Source: Corbicula japonica
Taxonomy: Eukaryota > Mollusca > Bivalvia > Venerida > Cyrenidae
Reading direction: 5' to 3'
Assembly (NCBI GenBank): GCA_038501625.1
Contig: JAZAYU010000019.1
Location: 6,108,709-6,172,708 of the forward strand
DNA length: 64,000 nt
Part shown: one piece after another, positions 5,660-58,900 of the stretch
How the letters are laid out: each line of letters begins with the position of its first letter
How positions within the stretch are numbered: the first letter of the stretch is position 1
The notes under the pieces: generated by a model
What the model was told of the DNA's origin: nothing
Database searches by the model: none
The model's input: only the letters and a program-made list of their open reading frames with translations
Program-made: the position numbers and the translations under genes

Positions 5660-6977
5660 ACCAAGGGTGCACCGATGTTAAGATAGTATAGATGCATTCG
5701 TAAGTTTGCGATGCACCTACAAATTTATATGCCCAACTTGTAAATTTATACGTCCATCGCATAATTCAGCGGTGCACCGTTATTTATGCGACGTACACGT
5801 TAGACGTAAAAAGTGAATGAAACGGTATTCGAAAAAGCCACACATCGGTATTTTGTAGGTGAAACTATACCACGTGACTGAGAATGTCGTGCACATACAA
5901 ATCACTTGCTTCAGGTATGTTTGTTTTGCTTATTTCGCCTTAATTTCTGGATCGATTTTGATCAGAAAAAGAGCACCGTACTATTGTTAAAAGCATTTGC
6001 ATCGACATTAAATTTTCAATATCAGTAGGCTGCCGTTTTCTCTAACATTCAAAGACATTTCAAACAAAATAAATTTATCTTTGAATGTATGAGAAAACCT
6101 GACCGCTCTTGGTGCCAAGATGACGAATGATATATGTACGCATATGTCTTTTACAAGTGATTTTTTAAAATTCTTTCATTATTGTATACTCTTTTTTTAG
6201 CTTTTTGGAAAGAAAGAACGTTTAAATGTCTCATTTTCATTTATTATTTTTCATGTACATTGCTGTTAAGTTTTTAATGAGATTAAACTCATTCAAACAA
6301 CAACAACAACAACAACGTTATGTTTCAGTTTATAAGCTTTGGGGCCTATTGGTAATCGCAAAATTTACTTACAGTTTGTGTATAATCCAAGCTCGAACCC
6401 TTAATATATACTTTAAAAATTTCAAAATCACCGGTTTAAGCCATTTTAATTTTTTTATAAATTAGCCGTTCTGTAACACAACGCTTTCTAGACTTTTACC
6501 TGGAATTAAAACTATTATCTGGAAATGAATTATTTAAGTTTACCTTAGGAATAATCGATACGTCCTATGTTTAATTTTTTACTATCATCAACAATTTATT
6601 GAACCGTTATATTGTATTTCTAACAGAAATGTATTGATTGGAATTTTCCTATTAGATAAGTCTTCAACCGGAACAGATTCAGTAAGCTGGACCATTAACA
6701 AGAGATATCAAAGCACATATTATTTTAATAATAAATGGAACTGTATTAAAAACGAACCTGTCAACCTTAAAGGGAAATGTGTCTCATTGTTTCACATTGA
6801 AGTAAAACATTCTAAGTTAGTATAAATGTACGTGAAAACATACGAACAATCACGTCGTAAAAACACTGATTTATAAAAATTAGAGAGGGAGTGATCCATT
6901 TTTGTTTTAACGAAACGGGATGACATATATTCAGACAGTCAGAGACTCACTCAACAAAAGGCTATGTTGATGTAAAG
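5660..6977. other. Intergenic, no gene recognised
   Basis: AT-rich DNA with a small (CAA)n run near 6297-6315. The open frames at 6226-6465 and 6634-6825 have no recognisable domain and look like chance ORFs. Confidence 0.5.
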
Positions 6978-7917
6978 AAGTTCTCAATTGTCCAGCATCG
7001 TCATGTACAAAATTCTCAATGGTCCAACACCGTCATGTGCAAAGTCCTTGATGTTCAAGCCCCGTCATGTACAAAGTCGTTAATCTACAAAGTCCTCAAC
7101 GGCCAAGCCTCGTCATTAACAAATTCCTTCATGTACAGTCTTCAATCATCAAGCGCCATCATGTACAAAGTTCTCAATGGTGAATAACCGTCATGAAAAA
7201 AGTCCTTCATGTACATACCGGTAGTCCCAAATGGTCAAACACCTTCATGTACAAAGTCCTCAACGGTCGATTAGCGTCATGTACAGAGTCCTTAATGGTC
7301 AAACATTGTCATGTACAAAGTCTTCAGTTGTCAAGCACTGTCATGTACAATATTCTCAAAAGTCATGCACCGTCATGTACAAAGTCCTCAATGTTAAAGA
7401 AACGTCATGTGCAAAGTCCTCAATGGTCAAGCAGCGTCATGTACAAAGTTCTCAGTGGCAAAACACCGTCATGTGCAAAGTCCTCAATTGTCAAGCACCG
7501 TCATGTACAAAGTTCTCAGTGGCAAAACACCGTCATGTACAAAGTCCTCAATTGTCAAGCACCGTCATGTGCAAAGTCCTCAATGGTCAAGCAGCGTCAT
7601 GTACAAAATTTACAATGGCCAAACACCGTCATGTACAAATTCCTCAGTGGTCAAACACCGTCATGTACAAAGTTCTCAATGGTCAAACATTGTCATGTAC
7701 AAGGTCCCAATGGTCAAGCACCGCCATGTTCAAAGTCCTCAATTCTCAAGCACCATCGAGTTCAAAGTTCTCAATAGTCAAGCATCGTCGTGTACAAAGT
7801 TTACAATGCTCAATCACCGACATGTACGAAGTCTTTAATGGTCAAGCACCGTCACGTACAGAGTTCTAAATGACTAAGCACCGTCATGTACAAAGACCTC
7901 AATGATCAAGCACCGTC
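6978..7917. repeat. 32-bp minisatellite, about 29 units, open in all three forward frames
   Basis: Units of the type GTACAAAGTCCTCAATGG plus TCAAGCACCGTCAT repeat with a regular 32-bp period, clearest at 7441-7640, with scattered substitutions. Because 32 is not a multiple of 3 and the unit has no forward stop, three overlapping frames of 143, 194 and 212 codons stay open (7193-7869), each translating to a period of 32 residues built from MYKVLNGQ-like blocks. No splice or promoter context was recognised, so it is annotated as a repeat, not a gene. Confidence 0.85.
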
Positions 7918-7919
7918 AA

Positions 7920-26361: not shown

Positions 26362-28676
26362 TCAGTATGCATCAAGGTCTGTGGAGTAGTTAAACATTTC
26401 AAAGTCTAATCTATATACTTTTCGGATCCTGTTTATCGTACTTTCTGTTATATGGTCATATTCCTTAATCAATGCTTCCCGTCTTTGTTCCTTACTTTGC
26501 TCCAATGACAGCGGATATTTCTCAATCGTTTCTAATACAACATCTATCAAATATGTTTTGTCTTGGTATTCTTTTTCCGAGAACTTGTAATAGGGAAATG
26601 TAACATGTTTGCTTATAAGCCCTTGAATTTGAAATGCTTTCCAGATTCTTTGTACAATCAACGGCCATGTCCAACAGTCCGGACTCTCTTTGAAATCATT
26701 TTGTCTCTGCACGGCTATATAGAGTGCATTTATTACGCTTCGCACTGTGAACTCCACGCGACCGGAATGGAGAAGCTCCTGTATAACATGGAATGATTCG
26801 TCGCTCACATTGACAGTTTTCAGAACGTGTTCTATATCATCGCCAAATGTTTCTTGTTTCACTACCACAGTTCTTTCACTGTTACAAATGACATCTGAAT
26901 GCAGCGCTGACACCGGTCCGTAATGATCAAACATGGCTTTCTTTTTTTGCTTCGACAACGCAAAATCAAGGAAGTCTTGGAATGAAACGTTTACGGTACA
27001 AGCCAAAAGATTCTTAGCTAATTTATGGTTCGTTTTGTTAAATAGAATGTTAGATACCAGCATATACTTGTCAAATATCACACTTTTGCCAAGACTAACA
27101 GAAAACGGTAGGTACACCTTGTCCACATAAGCGGCAAAGAGTCGGCTAAACGGATTTCTAGCGGGTATTATGGCCAGTGCACGGTTCAGTTCAGTACGGT
27201 TCAGTTGGTGTACCCATTCGCCAGCGTTGGCATGAACATGTGCTCTACTCCAATCCATAATCTTTTGTGACTTTGCGACCCCAAAGTTCAGTATATGAAA
27301 CATCATCTTGAAAAACGTTGAACCGATTTTCGGTGTTTTAATGTAAGCGAGTTTGTATTTCTTGGCAAAAATCAGGCTATAAGTAGAATTAGAACTCTGT
27401 TTGTCCGCGATGCCTAGCTGTGTACACACCTTGTGTACCTGAAGATTGTTTTGGGCTGATAATAACAAGGGTTCCGTCATGTCTGACTCCCTAGAACTCT
27501 GTTTGTCCGCGATGCCTAGCTGTGTACACACCTTGTGTACCTGAAGATTGTTTTGGGCTGATAAAAACAAGGGTTCCGCCATGTTTGACTCCACTGGCGT
27601 GTCTGCAATCACAATGAATAATGGTCAATGTTTTCGAACTGAATTAGACTCATGATAACATTTAGACTTAAATTGTAAAATAGTAAATAGTACAGGGATA
27701 GAACTAGAGGGGGATCAGCTGCGTTATTCGAATCCCCGTTTTAGCATCAATGTTTAATTTTCATGGCGATTTCGGAAAGAAAGTTGGAAATTATCATGTT
27801 TTTTTTCTCTCTTTTTTTCTTTTTTTCCCTAGTTTGAGGCGGAAATTATCATGTTATTATTCTAAGACTTCAACTAATCCTTTTCTGTAAACCTCGCATC
27901 CGACCCTGAATATTATGTCGTGAAACGTGTTTTTCATTTTTTCAGTCCCACTGTTAAAGCCATACATGGGTTTTGTGCATGATTACAGCTATACTTATAA
28001 AATTGACACTAGTTTTGACTTTTGCGGTAGAAATGTCGGTGTCGCGAATTATGGTTATAAATCGGATTTTCATCCGATTCAACCTTGGGGCTGATTGAGG
28101 TTAAAGAACAGTGTCTGCCCAGCTGCTTTTACATTTATTCTACAATCCCTTATTTAACGAGGATACAAATAATGTTCAGGCTGGAAGAAAAAGGACTTTC
28201 CACTTTCGGTCTTGTCATTAAAACCGGAAGTAGGAAGTACCTTACGGATTTTTTTTGTCCAAACTAAACATGATTTCTTACAGTACTCTTAAAGAGATTC
28301 GGGCACCATGTATAAAGCATCTGGCAGATACTTTTGATTAACATGAGTCGACCCCAAAATTATACGATATATATTGTTTTGGTTCTGACGTTTATGACAA
28401 AAAACCTATGAAATGCGGTTATACTTATAGGCATTAATTGTTGTCGTTCTGCAATAATTCCTTACTTAAATAATAATAATAATAAAAGCTGTTAACAAAA
28501 TCTTTAATTTCATTTTGAAGCAACTGTTATCTGAAGACAAAAACACAGTAAATAATAAAGTTGTAAAACTTACGCGGCTGCGTTCGCCATGAAGAGAACA
28601 AGAACTCATTGACATAAAGAATGCAAAGTATCGCTCCTGCAAGCACAAACACACAGCATTGTCGTTTGGAAGCCAT
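26362..28676 (-). CDS. Carbohydrate sulfotransferase (Sulfotransfer_2 family, CHST8-14-like), type II membrane protein
   Basis: Model: complement(join(26362..27602,28574..28676)), 447 aa, junction phase 1. Exon 1 encodes a short cytosolic start (MASKRQ) and a signal anchor (CCVFVLAGAILCILYV), fitting a Golgi type II enzyme. Exon 2 holds a stem and the catalytic domain. The 5'-phosphosulfate loop TPKIGSTFFKMMF is at about residues 124-136 and the 3'-phosphate loop ARNPFSRLFAAYVDK at about 182-196, both typical of the chondroitin/HNK-1 group that transfers sulfate from PAPS to glycans. The stem carries a 34-residue near-exact tandem duplication (about residues 40-106; DNA period 102 bp, 27389-27590) with SAQNNLQVHKVCTQLGIADK in each unit. 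The acceptor glycan cannot be told. Confidence 0.9.
27389..27592 (-). repeat. In-frame 102-bp tandem duplication in the sulfotransferase stem
   Basis: AGAACTCTGTTTGTCCGCGA starts at 27391 and again at 27493. The units differ at only a few bases (for example Ala/Thr and Phe/Leu changes). The reading frame is kept, adding 34 residues between anchor and catalytic domain. Confidence 0.95.
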
Positions 28677-43160: not shown

Positions 43161-43700
43161 ATCCTTTCCACCATATATAAGCTTTCTTTGCGTGGATTAA
43201 CATTGTAGATCCAGATCTGCCAGTACATCTGTGCCGTCTGATCAGGATCTGTTCTGTTTGCATTTCGAGTTATTAGGTTATTTCTGACCAAAAAGTAAAC
43301 AGAACAGATCCAGACAGCATTTGTGTGCATGCTGATCTGGATCTACACTTGTTGCACATGCCATCAAGGCGTATATATGGATTGTTTGTTTGTTTGTTTG
43401 TTTGGGGTTTAACGCCTGGTTTCAACACCTTTCTGGTTATATCCCGGCGGTCAGTCCACCTAACCGGTGTTCCTGGGTCTCTAACCAGTACTAACCAATT
43501 TCTCCGCAAGCGACTGACTGCTTCCTCACTTGAATCAGAGGTGAGGGACAAATGACTCTCAGACGCAATGTCCGAGTTCAATTGTCACGGAGAAATTTTT
43601 CCCGCCTCGGCTGGGGATCGAACTCACGACCCCTGGATTGACAGTCCGATGCTCTATCCACTGAGCTAGCCGGGCGGGCGCGTATATATGGAAGAAAGAG
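43161..43700. mobile_element. GATC-rich double-hairpin MITE split by a SINE
   Basis: Both hairpins are present (43195-43260 and 43300-43355). The right terminal segment GCGTATATATGGA is interrupted and repeated on the far side of a SINE. Right TTAA at 43701-43704. Confidence 0.8.
43382..43679 (-). mobile_element. Full-length tRNA-derived SINE (298 bp)
   Basis: On the minus strand the head starts with GGCTAGCTCAGTGGATAGAG (A box), has GAGTTCGATCCC (B box), then a body ending GTTGAAACCAGGCGTTAAAC and a (CAAA)n tail. An exact 13-bp target duplication GCGTATATATGGA lies at 43369-43381 and 43680-43692. The body end resembles the conserved 3' module of SINEs widespread in bivalves. The intact duplication means a fairly recent insertion. 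Confidence 0.9.
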
Positions 43701-49900: not shown

Positions 49901-52900
49901 AACAGTTTTGTGTGCTTGAAAGGCTTAAGGAAAATGCTGTTCAAGTAGTATTGAATTGGAAAAGAAATATTGTTCAAATCAAAAGCATATGTGTTATAAA
50001 TGATACACAATATCAGCTATCTGTGAATGGTTTGCAACATGAAAAATGACACTAATAGAACATTTATCAGTCATACATGTATAATGAAATACTAATTGTC
50101 TGATGATAAGACAATATGAAGACCTTTCGAGCTTCGCCCAAGATCATAAACTAAATCTGGAGACTTGTCTCAAACCTCAAGCATCTGATTGGCTGAAATG
50201 GTGACTGGTCCCCATTTCAGCCAATCAGAAGCTTGAGATTTCAGACTGGACACCAAACTCAGGTTTCTGATCTTGGGACCTTACAGGGCTTTCCCCAGGC
50301 AATTATGGCATACCGGCGCCGGGATGCCTTAATTTCTAAACTAACATTTGCGGGATGCTTATAATCCGCCGGTATGCCATAAATCCTGGCCGGGATGCTT
50401 TAAAATTCAATATACAAGGTCAATAAACATGTCAAATTAGGAAACTTTCTCGCCAATTTCAAGTGTTTCTCTGATATTGTTAAGTGTCGACTGTACAAGA
50501 TCACTTCTTAAAATATTTAATGAGCGTCTGCTGTGGATCAGAAGTCGGATATTTGGATGAGTGTCTGTTGAATACAGAGAAGACAGTCATAAATCAACCA
50601 ATTAAGAACAGATTATCTCGGCAGTTATGATGGCCTAAATGAGATTAAAATCGGTATATTGTTCTTTGATGACCTGCTAACTGTGAAGAGTTGTGAGCAT
50701 GTATTGCTAAGTGGTAAATGATAATCTTGTCACTTATATTAACAGGCGAATACAGAAGGTTTATTATAACAAATTGTAACCATAAATGAAGACCATTTTA
50801 AAGTAATTTGATGTTATAAAAGTACTAATTGAAAGTACTTACTGTACATCTTTAAATGCTGTCCATATCAATAAATGGCCATTCTACTGAACTTATCAAC
50901 AAGTCATGTATTAAATTGTGGCATAATCATAATGACAAGAGCAGGTCTGCAATCAAGGGCTGTGTATATATTGCAACAAGAGACAGTTGTGGCATGATTT
51001 TAGACTGATGTACATAAAAAATGAAGCAACAACTGTTTTGTATTAAGTACAATACAATAGCAAGTCTGTGGTAGTTCTGTGAAAAATGTACTTTGTCACA
51101 TTTCAATAAAACTTAGATTACTTGTTGCTTTGTGCTAAATATATATTAATATAAATTGTATTTGTAAGATACACCCCATCAGCCATGTGAAAACATTTTG
51201 CACGAATTAGCATGTCACGCGTTGGATGCCAGGATGCCTTAAAATTTTTCTGGGGAAGGCCCTGCCTTATAAATCAACAATATTATTATCTTTGGCCTCG
51301 TTAATGTACCACTAGATTTGTATATTGACCTCATCATCCAATAAAAGACTGCATAAACAACACAAATCATGATAACTAGGCTTCTTTAATGACTTATATT
51401 TGTGTTTCATATTATTTTCTTCCATGTTTGAAAGAAATCAATGGGAATCTAGATTGAATCTCATAAACAGTTAATATCATCCCCACCATCTCTATGAAAT
51501 AAAATAGCACCACCAGTCAACTTTTCTAGCTTGGGGGCAAAAGTTATTGTATGGAATCATTCCTGTAAACATATTGCTACCTTAGTGCAAAACCAGTACA
51601 ACTACCATTTAACCCTTTCCTGTATAGATACACCTTTATTGCTAGGGCGAACAGTTTAGATCCAGATCAGCCGGCACATCCGTGCCGTCTGATCAGGATC
51701 TGAACTGTTCGCTTTTTTTTTCATTAGGTTATTTCTGACCAAAATGCGACCAGTGCAGATCCTGATCAGATCTACACTGGTCGCACATGCGTAAAAATGC
51801 GTATATATCCAGGAAAGGGTTGAACAAGAAAGAGTACTTAGGTGACAAACTGTTGTTGATGATAGAATTATGTCCTCAGCACCTGTCACATTTTATTTTT
51901 TTATACTAACTAACACACCTGATAATAAAATGTACCGGTACAGTCAAACCTGTACTAAAGACCACCTGTAAACAAAGACCACATATGGACAAAGACCACA
52001 CTTTATTTGCCCCACTGACTGATTTGAAGAACAAATTTACCTGTGAACAAAGACCACCTGCCTTAAATGAACACTGATATCTTAAATTGGGGTATTTCTT
52101 TTATATCTTAGACATCTATTCATTTTGTTGTCCGCTATTTTGCTTACTTCAGTATCTAATGTCAAGGAATGTTACATGTTGCTACCTTCAGTGTGTTACC
52201 CTCGTATCTGATGGCAAGGTATGTATCATAATCTCTGTTCCGGAACAATGAGGTACATCCGGCAAGCTCTGTGTGGGTACCATCCCTGTCATGATCATAG
52301 TGCAGGGAACCATTGTTTACCATCGCGGAGATATAGGGGTGCTGGTGCTGAAAACATACCAGAAAACTCAATATACAGTGAATTCCACCCTAAACCCTTT
52401 CCTCCATATATACCTCTTTATGCCATGGGTGAACAGTGTAGATCCAGATCAACTGGCACATCCATGGCATCTGATCAGGATCTGAACTTTTTGATTTATT
52501 ATGTAATTTCTGACCAAAAAGCGAACAGAAAAGATTCTGATCAGATGGTATGCATACAGGTAAAAAGGCATATGTATGGAAAGAGGGGTTAAGACCAACC
52601 TGAACCAAAGACCACTCCAGTATTATAACCTCTATTTTATTGTCCCTTTTTACAGATCAGTGCTTGGGTTAATTCTGCCCCAAAATATAGACCAGTCCAG
52701 AATTACGACCACTTTTTCCCAGCCTCAATATTTTCTGAGTAGTGAGGATTCACTTAACAAACATCAACTGTGAATATGTACATGTACCATTATGAATTAA
52801 AGACATTTTACCTGTAAATACATTTTATTTTTAAGCAATGCTATACTTGAATAAACACCACCTGCTTTTAAATTGTCTTTTTTTCCCAATTCAACTGTTT

Positions 52901-55900
52901 ATTTACATCTTTTTTTCCAAAGTTTCATGAACAATAAAGTCTGTCAGTTAAAATCTTTGCACAGTATGCTAAGGATAAGACAAGATTGATTTTAACACTC
53001 ATCTTGCCATTTGCTGCTTTGAAAGTCTTCAGACTGTATTCATGTGATGAAAAACATTTGCTCTAGGGTATGAATACATGTCACGGTACGAATCTAGTCA
53101 CTATCTGGGGAGAAGATGTGTATGCGGACGGATAGCTCGGTCGGGAGAGCACTCGCCCTGTAAGCAAGGGGTCCCAGGTTCGAGTCCCGGTCTGGCTGCA
53201 CATTCTTTCTCACCCTGTGACATTTGGCGCCCAACGGGGGACCGTGAAAGCTAGCAGGTTCGACCAACAGCCTGTAATAGCAAATTAAATACACGTAACT
53301 CTCTGGAATTCGAGGACGAATTTCCAAATTTGAGGGGGTGTATGTCACGGTACGAATCTAGTCACTATCTGGGGAGAAGATGTGTATGCGGACGGATAGC
53401 TCGGTCGGGAGAGCACTCGCCCTGTAAGCGAGGGGTCCCGGGTTCGAGTCCCGGTCTGGCTGCACATTCTTTCTCACCCTGTGACATACAGTAAAAAGCA
53501 GGACTATACATTAAGCAAACAGTGTAGTTCCTGATCTGATGGCCTGATGTGCCAGCTGATCTAGAACAATGTTTAATCCTTGAAATAAAGGTGTATATAT
53601 GAAGCAGAGCTTTCATTCTGAAGTACAAATTCATATGAATATCATCAGATACTTGCGCCAGCATCAAAATGATTTCATACCTTTGATGACCTAATTCAAT
53701 TTCTTTTTAACTCCTAATTGAATTGAGAAGTATTACTACCATACAAAACCTACTTTATTCATTACTACCTTTAAAATAAGCCAAAGAACTCACTGAAGAA
53801 TTCTTTTTGGAAACTACCAATTATCAATAAGTTGGTTATATATTTTGATTTTTTTTTCAACAAACCTCCTATTTTATTATGATGAAGCTAATAAAGCAAT
53901 GAGCAAACTGGTCTACTTACATTGTGTGGGCCATTGTGGTTACTGTAGGTGTCAGCTATCACGGCCAGGCCAACAAAATAATCCTTGTTGCCAAATACTG
54001 GACCTGAATAGAAATTTGCAATGAAGTCTTATCCCTTTCCTGTATAGATACACCTTTATTGCATGGGCGAACAGTTTAGATCCATATCGGCCGGCACATC
54101 CATGCCGTCTGATCAGGATCTAAACTGTTCGCTTTTTACTTTGTTAGGTTATTTCTGACCTAAATGCAACCAGTGCAGATCCTGATCAGACGGCATGAAT
54201 GTGTCGACTCACCTGGAATACACTGGTCGCACATGCGTAAATATGCGTATATATGGAGAAGGGTTATTGTTTTCAAACTCTTTTTAACCTTTCGCTCCAT
54301 ATTCATTTTACCGCATGTGGGAACCGTGCAGATCCAGATCAAATTGCACAGATGTGCCAGCTGATCAGGATCTGCATTTTTCGCTTTTAGATTCATTAGG
54401 TAATTTCTGACATTAGCAAATCACCATTTGCTTTTTGGTCAGAAATAATTAATCTAAAAACAAACAGTGTAGATCTTGATCAGATGGAAAAGATGTGCCA
54501 ACTCCATGTGCCAGCCGATCTGGATCTAAACTGTTCTCCCGTGCCATAAAAAAGGGGTATACATGGAGTAAAGGTTNNNNNNNNNNNNNNNNNNNNNNNN
54601 NNNNNNNNNNNNNNNNNNNNNNNNNNNNNNNNNNNNNNNNNNNNNNNNNNNNNNNNNNNNNNNNNNNNNNNNNNNNNNNNNNNNNNNNNNNNNNNNNNNN
54701 NNNNNNNNNNNNNNNNNNNNNNNNNNNNNNNNNNNNNNNNNNNNNNNNNNNNNNNNNNNNNNNNNNNNNNNNNNNNNNNNNNNNNNNNNNNNNNNNNNNN
54801 NNNNNNNNNNNNNNNNNNNNNNNNNNNNNNNNNNNNNNNNNNNNNNNNNNNNNNNNNNNNNNNNNNNNNNNNNNNNNNNNNNNNNNNNNNNNNNNNNNNN
54901 NNNNNNNNNNNNNNNNNNNNNNNNNNNNNNNNNNNNNNNNNNNNNNNNNNNNNNNNNNNNNNNNNNNNNNNNNNNNNNNNNNNNNNNNNNNNNNNNNNNN
55001 NNNNNNNNNNNNNNNNNNNNNNNNNNNNNNNNNNNNNNNNNNNNNNNNNNNNNNNNNNNNNNNNNNNNNNNNNNNNTCTCATAAACAGTTAATATCATCC
55101 CCACCATCTCTATGAAATAAAATAGCACCACCAGTCAACTTTTCTAGCTTGGGGGCAAAAGTTATTGTATGGAATCATTCCTGTAAACATATTGCTACCT
55201 TAGTGCAAAACCAGTACAACTACCATTTAACCCTTTTCCTGTATAGATACACCTTTATTGCTAGGGCGAACAGTTTAGATCCAGATCAGCCGGCACATCC
55301 GTGCCGTCTGATCAGGATCTAAACTGTTCGCTTTTTTATTCATTAGGTTATTTCTGACCAAAATGCGACCAGTGCAGATCCGGATCAGATCTACACTGGT
55401 CGCACACGCGTAAAAATGCGTATATATCCAGGAAAGGGTTGAACAAGAAAGAGTACTTAGGTGACAAACTGTTGTTGATGATAGAATTATGTCCTCAGCA
55501 CCTGTCACATTTTCTTTTTTTATACTAACTAACACACCTGATAATAAAATGTACCGGTACAGTCAAACCTGTACTAAAGACCACCTGTAAACAAAGACCA
55601 CCTATGGACAAAGACCACACTTTATTTGCCCCACTGACTGATTTGAAGAACAAATTTACCTGTGAACAAAGACCACCTGCCTTAAATGACCACTGCATGT
55701 ATCTAACACTGATATCTTAAATTGGGGTATTTCTTTTATATCTTAGACATCTTTTCATTTTGTTGTCCGCTATTTTGCTTACTTCAGTATCTAATGTCAA
55801 GGAATGTTACATGTTGCTACCTTCAGTGTGTTACCCTCGTATCTGATGGCAAGGTATGTATCATAATCTCTGTTCCGAAACAATGAGGTACATCCGGCAA

Positions 55901-58900
55901 GCTCTGTGTGGGTACCATCCCTGTCATGATCATAGTGAAGGGAACCATTGTTTACCATCGCGGAGATATAGGGATGTTGGTGCTGAAAACAGACCAGAAA
56001 ACTCAATATACAGTGAATTCCACCCTAAACCCTTTCCTCCATATATACCTCTTTATGCCATGGGTGAACAGTGTAGATCCAGATCAACTGGCACATCCAT
56101 GGCATCTGATCAGGATCTGAACTTTTTGATTTATTATGTAATTTCTGACCAAAAAGCGAACAGAAGAGATTCTGATCAGATGGTATGCATACAGGTAAAA
56201 AGGCATATGTATGGAAAGAGGGGTTAAGACCAACCTGAACCAAAGACCACTCCATTATAATCTTTATTTTATTGTCCCTTTTTACAGATCAGTGCTTGGG
56301 TTAATTCTGCCCCAAAATATAGACCAGTCCAGAATTACGACCACTTTTTCCCAGCTTCAATATTTTCTGAGTAGTGAGGATTCACTTAACCCTTTCCTGG
56401 ATATATACGCATTTTTACACATGTGCGACCAGTGTAGATCCAGATCAGCCGGCACATCCGTGCCGTCTGATCAGGATCTGCACTGGTCGCATTTTGGTCA
56501 GAAATAACCTAATGAATCAAAGAGCGAACAGTTTAGATCCTGATCAGACAGCACGGATGTGCCGGCTGATCTGGATCTAAACTGTTCGCCCTAGCAATAA
56601 AGGTGTATCTGTACGGGAAAGGGTTAAAGACATTTTACCTATAAATACATTTTATTTTTAAGCATTGCTATACTTGAATAAACACCACCTGCTTTTAAAT
56701 TGTCTTTTTTTTCCCAATTCAACTGTTTATTTGCATCTTGTTTTCCAAAGTTTCATGAACAATAAAGTCTGTCAGTTAAAATCTTTGCACAGTATGCTAA
56801 GGATAAGACAAGATTGATTTTAACACTCATCTTGCCATTTGCTGCTTTGAAAGTCTTTAGACTGTGTTCATGTGATGAAAAACATTTGCTCTAGGGTATG
56901 AATACATGTCACGGTACGAATCTAGTCACTATCTGGGGAGAAGATGTGTATGCGGACGGATAGCTCGGTCGGGAGAGCACTCGCCCTGTAAGCGAGGGGT
57001 CCCGGGTTCGAGTCCCGGTCTGGCTGCACATTCTTTCTCACCCTGTGACATTTGGCGCCCAACGGGGAACTGTGAAAGCTAGCAGGTTCGACCAACATCC
57101 TGTAATAGCAAATTAAATACACGTAACTCTATGGAATTCGAGGACGAATTTCCAAATTTGAGGGGGTGTATGTCACGGTACGAATCTAGTCACTATCTGG
57201 GGAGAAGATGTGTATGCGGACGGATAGCTCAGTCGGGAAAGCACTCGCCCTGTAAGCGAGGGGTCCCGGGCTCCAGTCCCGGTCTGGCTGCACATTCTTT
57301 CTCACCTTGTGACATACAGTAAAAAGCAGGACTATACATAAAGCAAACAGTGTAGTTCCTGATCAGATGTGCCAGCTGATCTAGTACAATGTTCAATCCT
57401 TGAAATAAAGGTATATATGAAGCAGAGCTTTCATTCTGAAGTACAAATTCATATGAATATCATCAGATACTTGCGCCAGCATCAAAATGATTTCATACCT
57501 TTGATGACCTAATTCAATTTCTTCTTAAGTCCTAATTGAACTGAGAAGTATTACTACCATACAAAACCTTTTTTATTTTCATTCCTAGTTTTAAAATCAG
57601 CCAAAGAACTCACTGACAAATTCTTTTTGGAAAATACCAATTATCAATAAGTTGGCTATATATTTTGACCTTTTTTTTCAACAAACCTCCTATTTGATTA
57701 TGATGAAGCTAATAAAGCAATAAGCAAACTGGTCTACTTACATTGTGTGGGCCATTGTGGTTACTGTAGGTATCAGCTATCACAGCAAGGCCAACAAAAT
57801 AATCCTTGTTGCCAAATACTGGACCTGAATAGAAATTTGCAATGAAGACTTAACCCTTTCCTCCACAGATACACCTTTATTGCTAGGGCGAACAGTTTAT
57901 ATCCAGATCAGCTGGCACATCTGTGCTGTCTGATCAGAATCTGAACTGTTCGCTTTTTGATTTGTTAGGTTATTTCTGACCAAAATGCGACCAGTGCAGA
58001 TCCTGATCAGATGGCATAAATGTGCCATCTAATCTGGATCTACACTGGTCGCACATGCGTAAAAATGTGTATATTGGAGGAAAGGGTTATTGTTTTGAAA
58101 CTCTTTTTAACCCTTCAATCCATATTTGTTTTACCATGTGTGGGAACAGTGCAGATCCAGATCAAATGGCACAGATGTGCCAGCTGATCAGGATCTGCAC
58201 TTATGGCTTTTAGAATCATTAGGTAATTTCTGACATTAGCTATCACTATATGCTTCTTGGTCAGAAATAACCTTATGAATCTAAAAGTGAACAATGTAGA
58301 TCCTGATCAGATGGCATGGATGTGCCACGTCCATGTGCCAGCTGATCTGGATCTAAACTGTTCTCCCGTGCCATAAAAAAGGGGTATACATGGAGTAAAG
58401 GTTTAACAGCAGCCTCTCTTTAGAGATTTTAAATGAAATCCAGAAATGAAAAATATCATAAGGGCTGGCAGTATTTGGTAGGTTGGGACAGGTACCCTAA
58501 ACACACAAATTTTTCCTTTATACCTTACAAATAATTATTCTTATATAATAATTTAATGGCAAATAATAACAGTTCAGATAGCTCAAAACTTGTCATCTTA
58601 GCAAAAATGACATGACCTGTCAACAGGGTTATGCAAACATAATTAAATATGTTAGTATTATTTATTGATGTTTTGAATTGATAAATTCCTGAAGTAGGTT
58701 AGTGTATTATTGTAAATGGTTGCTAATTTCTTCAACTTTTTACCATTTAAAATACTTCACTTTGGTTTTTCGTTTCTGACAGCATGTACAACACTTGGTC
58801 ACTGATACAAACTTTCAATATATATATAATACATATTACTGGTATAAGCCTAAAATGCACAGATTCAATTTGTGAAGAGTGTACACTTACATAAACTCCA

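Follow-up and report, generated by a model that had tools for sequence, protein, structure and literature searches.

A 408-bp noncoding unit at positions 53079 to 53486 (plus strand) of the window, by which we mean the whole 64-kb stretch of DNA analyzed here, is very probably a Helenus-type miniature LTR retrotransposon (TRIM) of the TRIMp3 group, residing most likely in a heterodont clam, and we propose for it a cycle based on RNA polymerase III (Pol III). Its anatomy gives good support to the reading as a TRIM whose LTRs carry a Pol III promoter of the tRNA type. Since elements of this kind are already in print under the name Helenus, the present one is best regarded as a further member, probably in a new host branch.

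The unit consists of two 144-bp LTRs (53079 to 53222 and 53343 to 53486, both on the plus strand), each starting with TGTCAC and ending with GTGACA, that surround a 120-bp interior and are identical at 142 of 144 sites, the other 2 being different. A 4-bp target-site duplication, TACA, flanks it on the left (53075 to 53078) and on the right (53487 to 53490). Two bases past the 5' LTR lies a primer-binding site (PBS), TGGCGCCCAACGGGG (53225 to 53239, plus strand), and a polypurine tract (PPT), GAGGGGG (53332 to 53338, plus strand), ends 4 bases ahead of the 3' LTR. All of these parts had been described in a first-pass annotation and were recovered at the same positions. When scored against the 3' ends of human tRNA-Lys, a reference other than the host's own tRNA-Lys, the PBS agrees at 16 of 18 positions with Lys-CTT and at 14 of 18 with Lys-TTT (15 and 13 of 18, respectively, in the second copy described below). 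Elsewhere in the window, the PBS motif has one 2-mismatch match, which is at chance level, in addition to its occurrence in both copies. A pre-PPT block (53303 to 53335, plus strand), the letters of which include GAATTCGAGGACGAATTTCC, is shared at the peptide level with three of the relatives discussed below (P0121, P0122, and P0125), and it may resemble the corresponding block of Gypsy elements. A literature search with the letters of the element returned, judging by title, only papers on aptamers or oligonucleotide drugs, and a search with the pre-PPT letters returned nothing related by title among the matches listed.

While no third copy or fragment of the element was found in the 64-kb window, a second copy, not listed at first pass, is present at 56907 to 57314 (plus strand), 97.3% identical to the first and with the same TACA flanks. 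Both copies are embedded in a block of approximately 3.2 kb that occurs twice, with 51459 to 54576 matching 55077 to 58403; the first version stops at the last base before a 500-N assembly gap (54577 to 55076, the sole run of Ns in the window), and the second starts at the first base after it. Because the shared block abuts the gap on both sides, as unmerged haplotype ends would, the two copies are probably two alleles of one insertion, and the junction at 54577 to 55076 likely reflects two haplotypes that the assembly falsely presents as a duplication. Between the blocks, substitutions amount to 11/408 sites in the element (2.7%), 6/282 just to its left (2.1%), 15/1239 further left (1.2%), 23/504 just to its right (4.6%), and 89/671 in the rest (13.3%), where repeats make the alignment doubtful. 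This unevenness along the block, together with the presence of both copies in one window and on the same strand, might point to a true tandem segmental duplication instead of two alleles, a reading that we nevertheless consider rather unlikely, given that the block ends and starts exactly at the contig edges with only the 500-N gap in between.

Divergence of the element did not differ significantly from that of its flanks (Fisher's test; P = 0.40 for the nearest 786 sites and P = 0.08 for 1,521 sites on the left), so that the insertion most likely happened before the two sequences separated. The 3' LTR of the first copy is identical to the 5' LTR of the second, and each of the other two LTRs has differences of its own (2 and 5, respectively); since no LTR difference is common to both copies, little time seems to have passed from insertion to split. 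The insertion would then be fairly young, unless gene conversion acted. A palindromic repeat of approximately 242 bp (CCCTTTCC...GGAAAGGG), with TTAA at its ends and approximately 20 full or partial copies in the window, occupies 56386 to 56629 in the second block only; the first block has approximately 40 other bases there, which do not make a clean empty site.

Each of the LTRs contains a tRNA-like segment. In the first copy, these segments are found at 53126 to 53198 (5' LTR) and 53390 to 53462 (3' LTR), both on the plus strand, with scores of 41.0 and 51.8 bits, respectively, against the Rfam tRNA covariance model (gathering score, 29), and ARAGORN calls both of them tRNA-Thr(TGT). In the second copy, they are found at 56954 to 57026 (5' LTR; 51.8 bits) and 57218 to 57290 (3' LTR; 44.9 bits), also on the plus strand, so that the covariance model, suggested as a check at first pass, matches all four LTRs (4/4). 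Both LTRs of the first copy contain an exact B box, GGTTCGAGTCC (53177 to 53187, plus strand, in the 5' LTR), and the initial description of a tRNA-like fold with an exact B box in each LTR of this copy was thus borne out. Besides tRNA, no Rfam family exceeded its gathering score in the window. Four of the five tRNA calls made by ARAGORN in the window are tRNA-Thr calls in these LTRs, and annotators should be warned that the program labels such LTRs tRNA-Thr genes.

Less regular is the A-box-like sequence, TAGCTCGGTCGG (53133 to 53144, plus strand), which, compared with the full box consensus, has a G at tRNA position 14; this position is G instead of A in three of the four LTRs, taking the A box off consensus. 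The motifs TAGCT, CGG, and GGTTC are present in both LTRs of the first copy. In tRNAs, position 33 is usually U. Here, the anticodon loop reads CCUGUAA, and since position 33 is therefore C, a working tRNA is unlikely; in addition, the acceptor stem contains a mismatched pair. We infer that the tRNA-like part serves as a promoter rather than as a functional tRNA gene. Its parent tRNA cannot be named, because ungapped identities to three human tRNAs are nearly even (52/73 for Lys-TTT, 50/73 for Thr-TGT, and 48/73 for Lys-CTT).

Divergent relatives of the element were found by means of an 87-residue minus frame that extends without a stop across the interior and most of the 5' LTR and that, although spurious as a protein, is a specific tag. 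Searched against 5.8 billion proteins, it yielded five matches from six candidates at E values up to 0.01, which are metagenome open reading frames (ORFs). Among these, P0121 (an ENA ORF of 144 residues; E = 2.8e-19) aligns in a single colinear run over 53079 to 53471, covering LTR, PPT side, interior, PBS, and LTR, with the tRNA-like part in both LTRs. Two stop codons of the frame in the window fall within the aligned run, and the interior piece of P0121 scores 115, versus 27 (median) and 44 (maximum) for shuffled sequences (n = 200). While the middle of the interior is hardly alike, the pre-PPT peptide LEIRPRI (7/7) and the peptide at the PBS/LTR junction, GPxLGAKCHRVRK (12/13), are kept. 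The possibility, raised at first pass, that the tRNA-like segment is a late insertion in one copy can be discarded, because P0121 has it in both LTRs.

The other relatives cover less of the element. In P0122, also an ENA ORF, an LTR lies between the PBS and the PPT side, an order (PBS, LTR, PPT) that suggests tandem arrays or one-LTR circles; P0123 and P0124 match the LTR part only, and P0125 matches the LTR and the pre-PPT part. The Lys-CTT PBS is compatible with the peptides at 18/18 positions in P0121 and 17/18 in P0122 (best of 2,000 random peptides, 16), and the B-box codons are compatible at 11/11 positions in all five relatives (5/5), with the proviso that a peptide fit is a matter of compatibility and not DNA evidence and overstates the agreement (the window's own peptide gives 17/18, versus 16/18 for its DNA). 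Fifteen loci in a viral-contig collection that matched the minus frame were rejected as relatives, as 15/15 overlap ARAGORN tRNA genes. In the same collection, P0121 as a query gave 0 related loci, and neither a 23-base pattern spanning the LTR end and PBS nor a pattern of B box, LTR end, and PBS gave any match; in a genome-contig collection, the latter pattern gave one match of 30 bases, in a Bacillota MAG (L001), which we took to be due to chance.

A Helenus-type origin does not by itself make the promoter a working one: the tRNA-like part might be a relic, with transcription being carried out by Pol II from U3 or from neighboring sequences. The G at tRNA position 14 of the A box in three of the four LTRs would fit such a scenario, as would the loss of the B box in the 3' LTR of the second copy, where it is changed to GGCTCCAGTCC, and the fact that the LTR2 segment, when folded as RNA by minimum free energy, does not adopt a cloverleaf and is no more stable than expected by chance (z = -0.59; 51/200 shuffles at least as stable). 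However, the 408 bp of the first copy contain no TATAAA, TATATA, or AATAAA and just one ATTAAA, located in the interior, while the exact B box is kept in the 5' LTRs of both copies and its codons are compatible in all of the relatives. We therefore regard a relic as improbable and favor a Helenus-type TRIM with a Pol III cycle. Elements of the SINE2 class are single tRNA-headed units with a simple or A-rich tail and a duplication of their own. Despite the tRNA calls by Rfam and ARAGORN in each repeat, an ordinary pair of tRNA genes or a tRNA-derived SINE duplicated by chance is extremely unlikely, as the 4-bp duplication encloses a two-LTR unit with correctly placed PBS and PPT, the C at position 33 and the mismatched acceptor pair argue against a working tRNA, and the same order is kept in a divergent relative.

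Elsewhere in the window (43380 to 43690, minus strand), a tRNA-Asp-like head (ARAGORN; Rfam tRNA, 29.8 bits) is followed by approximately 230 bases and a tail of AAAC repeats; this sequence, which occurs once in the window, resembles a tRNA-derived SINE.

How a Pol III transcript of the element would end deserves separate consideration. The first-pass annotation had stressed that TTTT is absent from the plus strand of the 408 bp, which is correct but carries little weight, since 64% of dinucleotide-preserving shuffles of the first copy and 66% of those of the second (n = 2,000) lack TTTT as well; as a selected feature, its absence was therefore rejected as unproven. In the AT-rich 64-kb stretch, however, only 154 of 3,688 segments of 408 bp are without TTTT. 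The first TTTT is met at 53704 for the first copy and at 57569 for the second, 578 and 615 bases, respectively, past the start of the tRNA-like part. In 6/6 stretches examined in the relatives, the peptides allow, and do not force, a TTTT past the tRNA-like part.

Noncanonical Pol III terminators of the interrupted-tract sort exist, and an interrupted T tract, ATTCTTTCT (53202 to 53210, plus strand, in the 5' LTR), which stands just downstream of each tRNA-like part, is a candidate weak terminator. According to a review (PMC5356446), four Ts are enough for the human enzyme and five or six are required in yeasts, with frequent read-through seen in human cells; a passage of PMC9278858 describes how, in budding yeast, nascent RNA structure aids weak terminators. 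A weak terminator at ATTCTTTCT would permit passage in the 5' LTR and cause a partial stop in the 3' LTR.

On this basis, the following cycle can be proposed. The A and B boxes of the 5' LTR would recruit TFIIIC and Pol III, and transcription would start near the 5' end of the tRNA-like part, leaving a U3 of only approximately 40 bp. The RNA would then cross the interior into the 3' LTR and might end at the ATTCTTTCT tract downstream of the tRNA-like segment there or else run on to the first TTTT of the flank. At the PBS, which is present in the sequence, a host tRNA-Lys would act as the primer, while Gag, reverse transcriptase/RNase H, and integrase would be supplied by a Ty3/Gypsy element; such a partnership is plausible and fits both the 4-bp duplication and the Lys-type PBS, although no Gypsy partner was found in the window. 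Finally, the observed PPT would prime the second strand, and integration would create the 4-bp duplication seen here. With its 408 bp, no T4, an exact B box, and a Lys-type PBS (16/18), the element lends itself as a compact model to the question of whether Pol III transcribes elements of this kind and how the transcripts end.

The host branch was derived from a CYP26-type P450 gene, three exons of which are located on the minus strand between 16787 and 13347 (GT and AG were seen at the ends of the first intron and GT at the start of the second, with the start of exon 3 set by eye). A search with this protein gave 529 proteins at E values up to 1e-30. Among the best 120 of these 529, the closest molluscs were Mercenaria mercenaria (62%), Mactra antiquata (53%), and Mya arenaria (49%), while the top match by E value was a moray eel entry with 43% identity; no oyster, mussel, or scallop was noticed among the matches listed. 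In a single-gene tree of the window and 20 proteins chosen from the 120 listed, with no pteriomorphs included, the window grouped with Mercenaria, Mactra, and Mya at 100/100, and the freshwater mussel Sinanodonta fell outside at 96/92. Within that clade, there was no firm branching order, the nearest by branch path being Mercenaria, although an identity of 62% makes M. mercenaria itself an improbable host. Mercenaria, Mactra, and Mya are heterodonts, and because the CYP26 protein groups with them, the host branch is most likely heterodont.

Two other coding or repetitive features of the window were recorded. A 420-codon ORF with a Sulfotransfer_2 domain (26362 to 27624, minus strand) contains a 102-bp tandem duplication, the units of which are 97% alike, near its start (27390 to 27592); no homologues of this ORF were found at an E value of 0.001 among 3,261 candidates. 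In addition, a 32-bp minisatellite of approximately 30 copies (6970 to 7918) is accompanied by three overlapping open frames of 146, 197, and 214 codons.

Compared with known systems, the element is most similar to Helenus, the name given by Kojima (2024) to TRIMs with tRNA-derived sequence in their LTRs, which are described in the main text of that paper from fungi, six animal phyla, and one plant, Selaginella, and which make up TRIMp3 together with Cassandra and Ajax (PMC10886601). The view, taken at first pass, that an animal element of the tRNA type would amount to a distinct solution is accordingly not supported. Five features of Helenus were found here by test: a size below 1,000 bp with two LTRs (here, 408 bp and 144 bp), a tRNA-derived sequence in each LTR with the motifs TRGCY and YGG, as named in PMC10886601, and GGTTC (here, TAGCT, CGG, and GGTTC), a PBS at the 5' end of the interior, a PPT before the 3' LTR, and a 4-bp duplication (here, TACA, representing one insertion in two copies). 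According to the same text, animal Helenus has 4-bp duplications, the primers of bivalve families include tRNA-Lys, and seven bivalve families are able to encode tRNA-Thr; the Pol III promoter function of Helenus is unvalidated in the source paper, too (PMC10886601). The likeness is one to the published description of the class, and the host is different: bivalve Helenus is reported from five orders, all of them Pteriomorphia (Table 1 of PMC10886601), whereas the host here is probably a heterodont clam. Nowhere does the main text of PMC10886601 contain the words Heterodonta, Mercenaria, or Veneri-, and a search of the literature that covered this main text and passages of PMC8905726 and PMC6934838 found no report of Helenus in Heterodonta. 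A probable heterodont host would thus be added to a class reported among molluscs, in that main text, only from pteriomorphs (PMC10886601), which bears on the age of the bivalve lineage.

Ajax of nemerteans is likewise a TRIM of animals whose LTRs contain a promoter derived from a small RNA, but it is 5S derived, with 5-bp duplications and a tRNA-Leu primer, as described in the main text of PMC10886601. Another bivalve TRIM, biv-TRIM, occurs in hosts that include venerid clams and forms tandem arrays; it differs in having terminal repeats of 202 to 218 bp, an interior of 77 to 80 bp, and no unambiguous PBS, as far as it is described in passages of PMC6934838, and its conserved interior motif TGATCCCAAAGGAC is absent from the plus strand of the element reported here. 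Cassandra of plants resembles our element in being a TRIM whose LTRs contain a Pol III promoter. In contrast to the tRNA-type element described here, which lacks TTTT and lies in a window with no 5S family above the Rfam gathering score, the LTRs of Cassandra carry 5S rRNA sequence in which promoter and terminator are conserved, and its transcript terminates within the 3' LTR, giving terminal repeats of 18 bp (main text of PMC10886601). Taking these comparisons together, we tentatively speculate, while holding the combined reading to be on the doubtful side, that this is a Pol III-transcribed LTR retroelement without a dedicated terminator, in which R would comprise most of the LTR, and that its presence in a heterodont either dates bivalve Helenus to before the split of Pteriomorphia and Heterodonta or reflects horizontal transfer or a separate birth. 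If so, an element without a terminator would represent an answer to the problem of two identical LTRs other than the one found in Cassandra, with its conserved terminator and 18-bp R.
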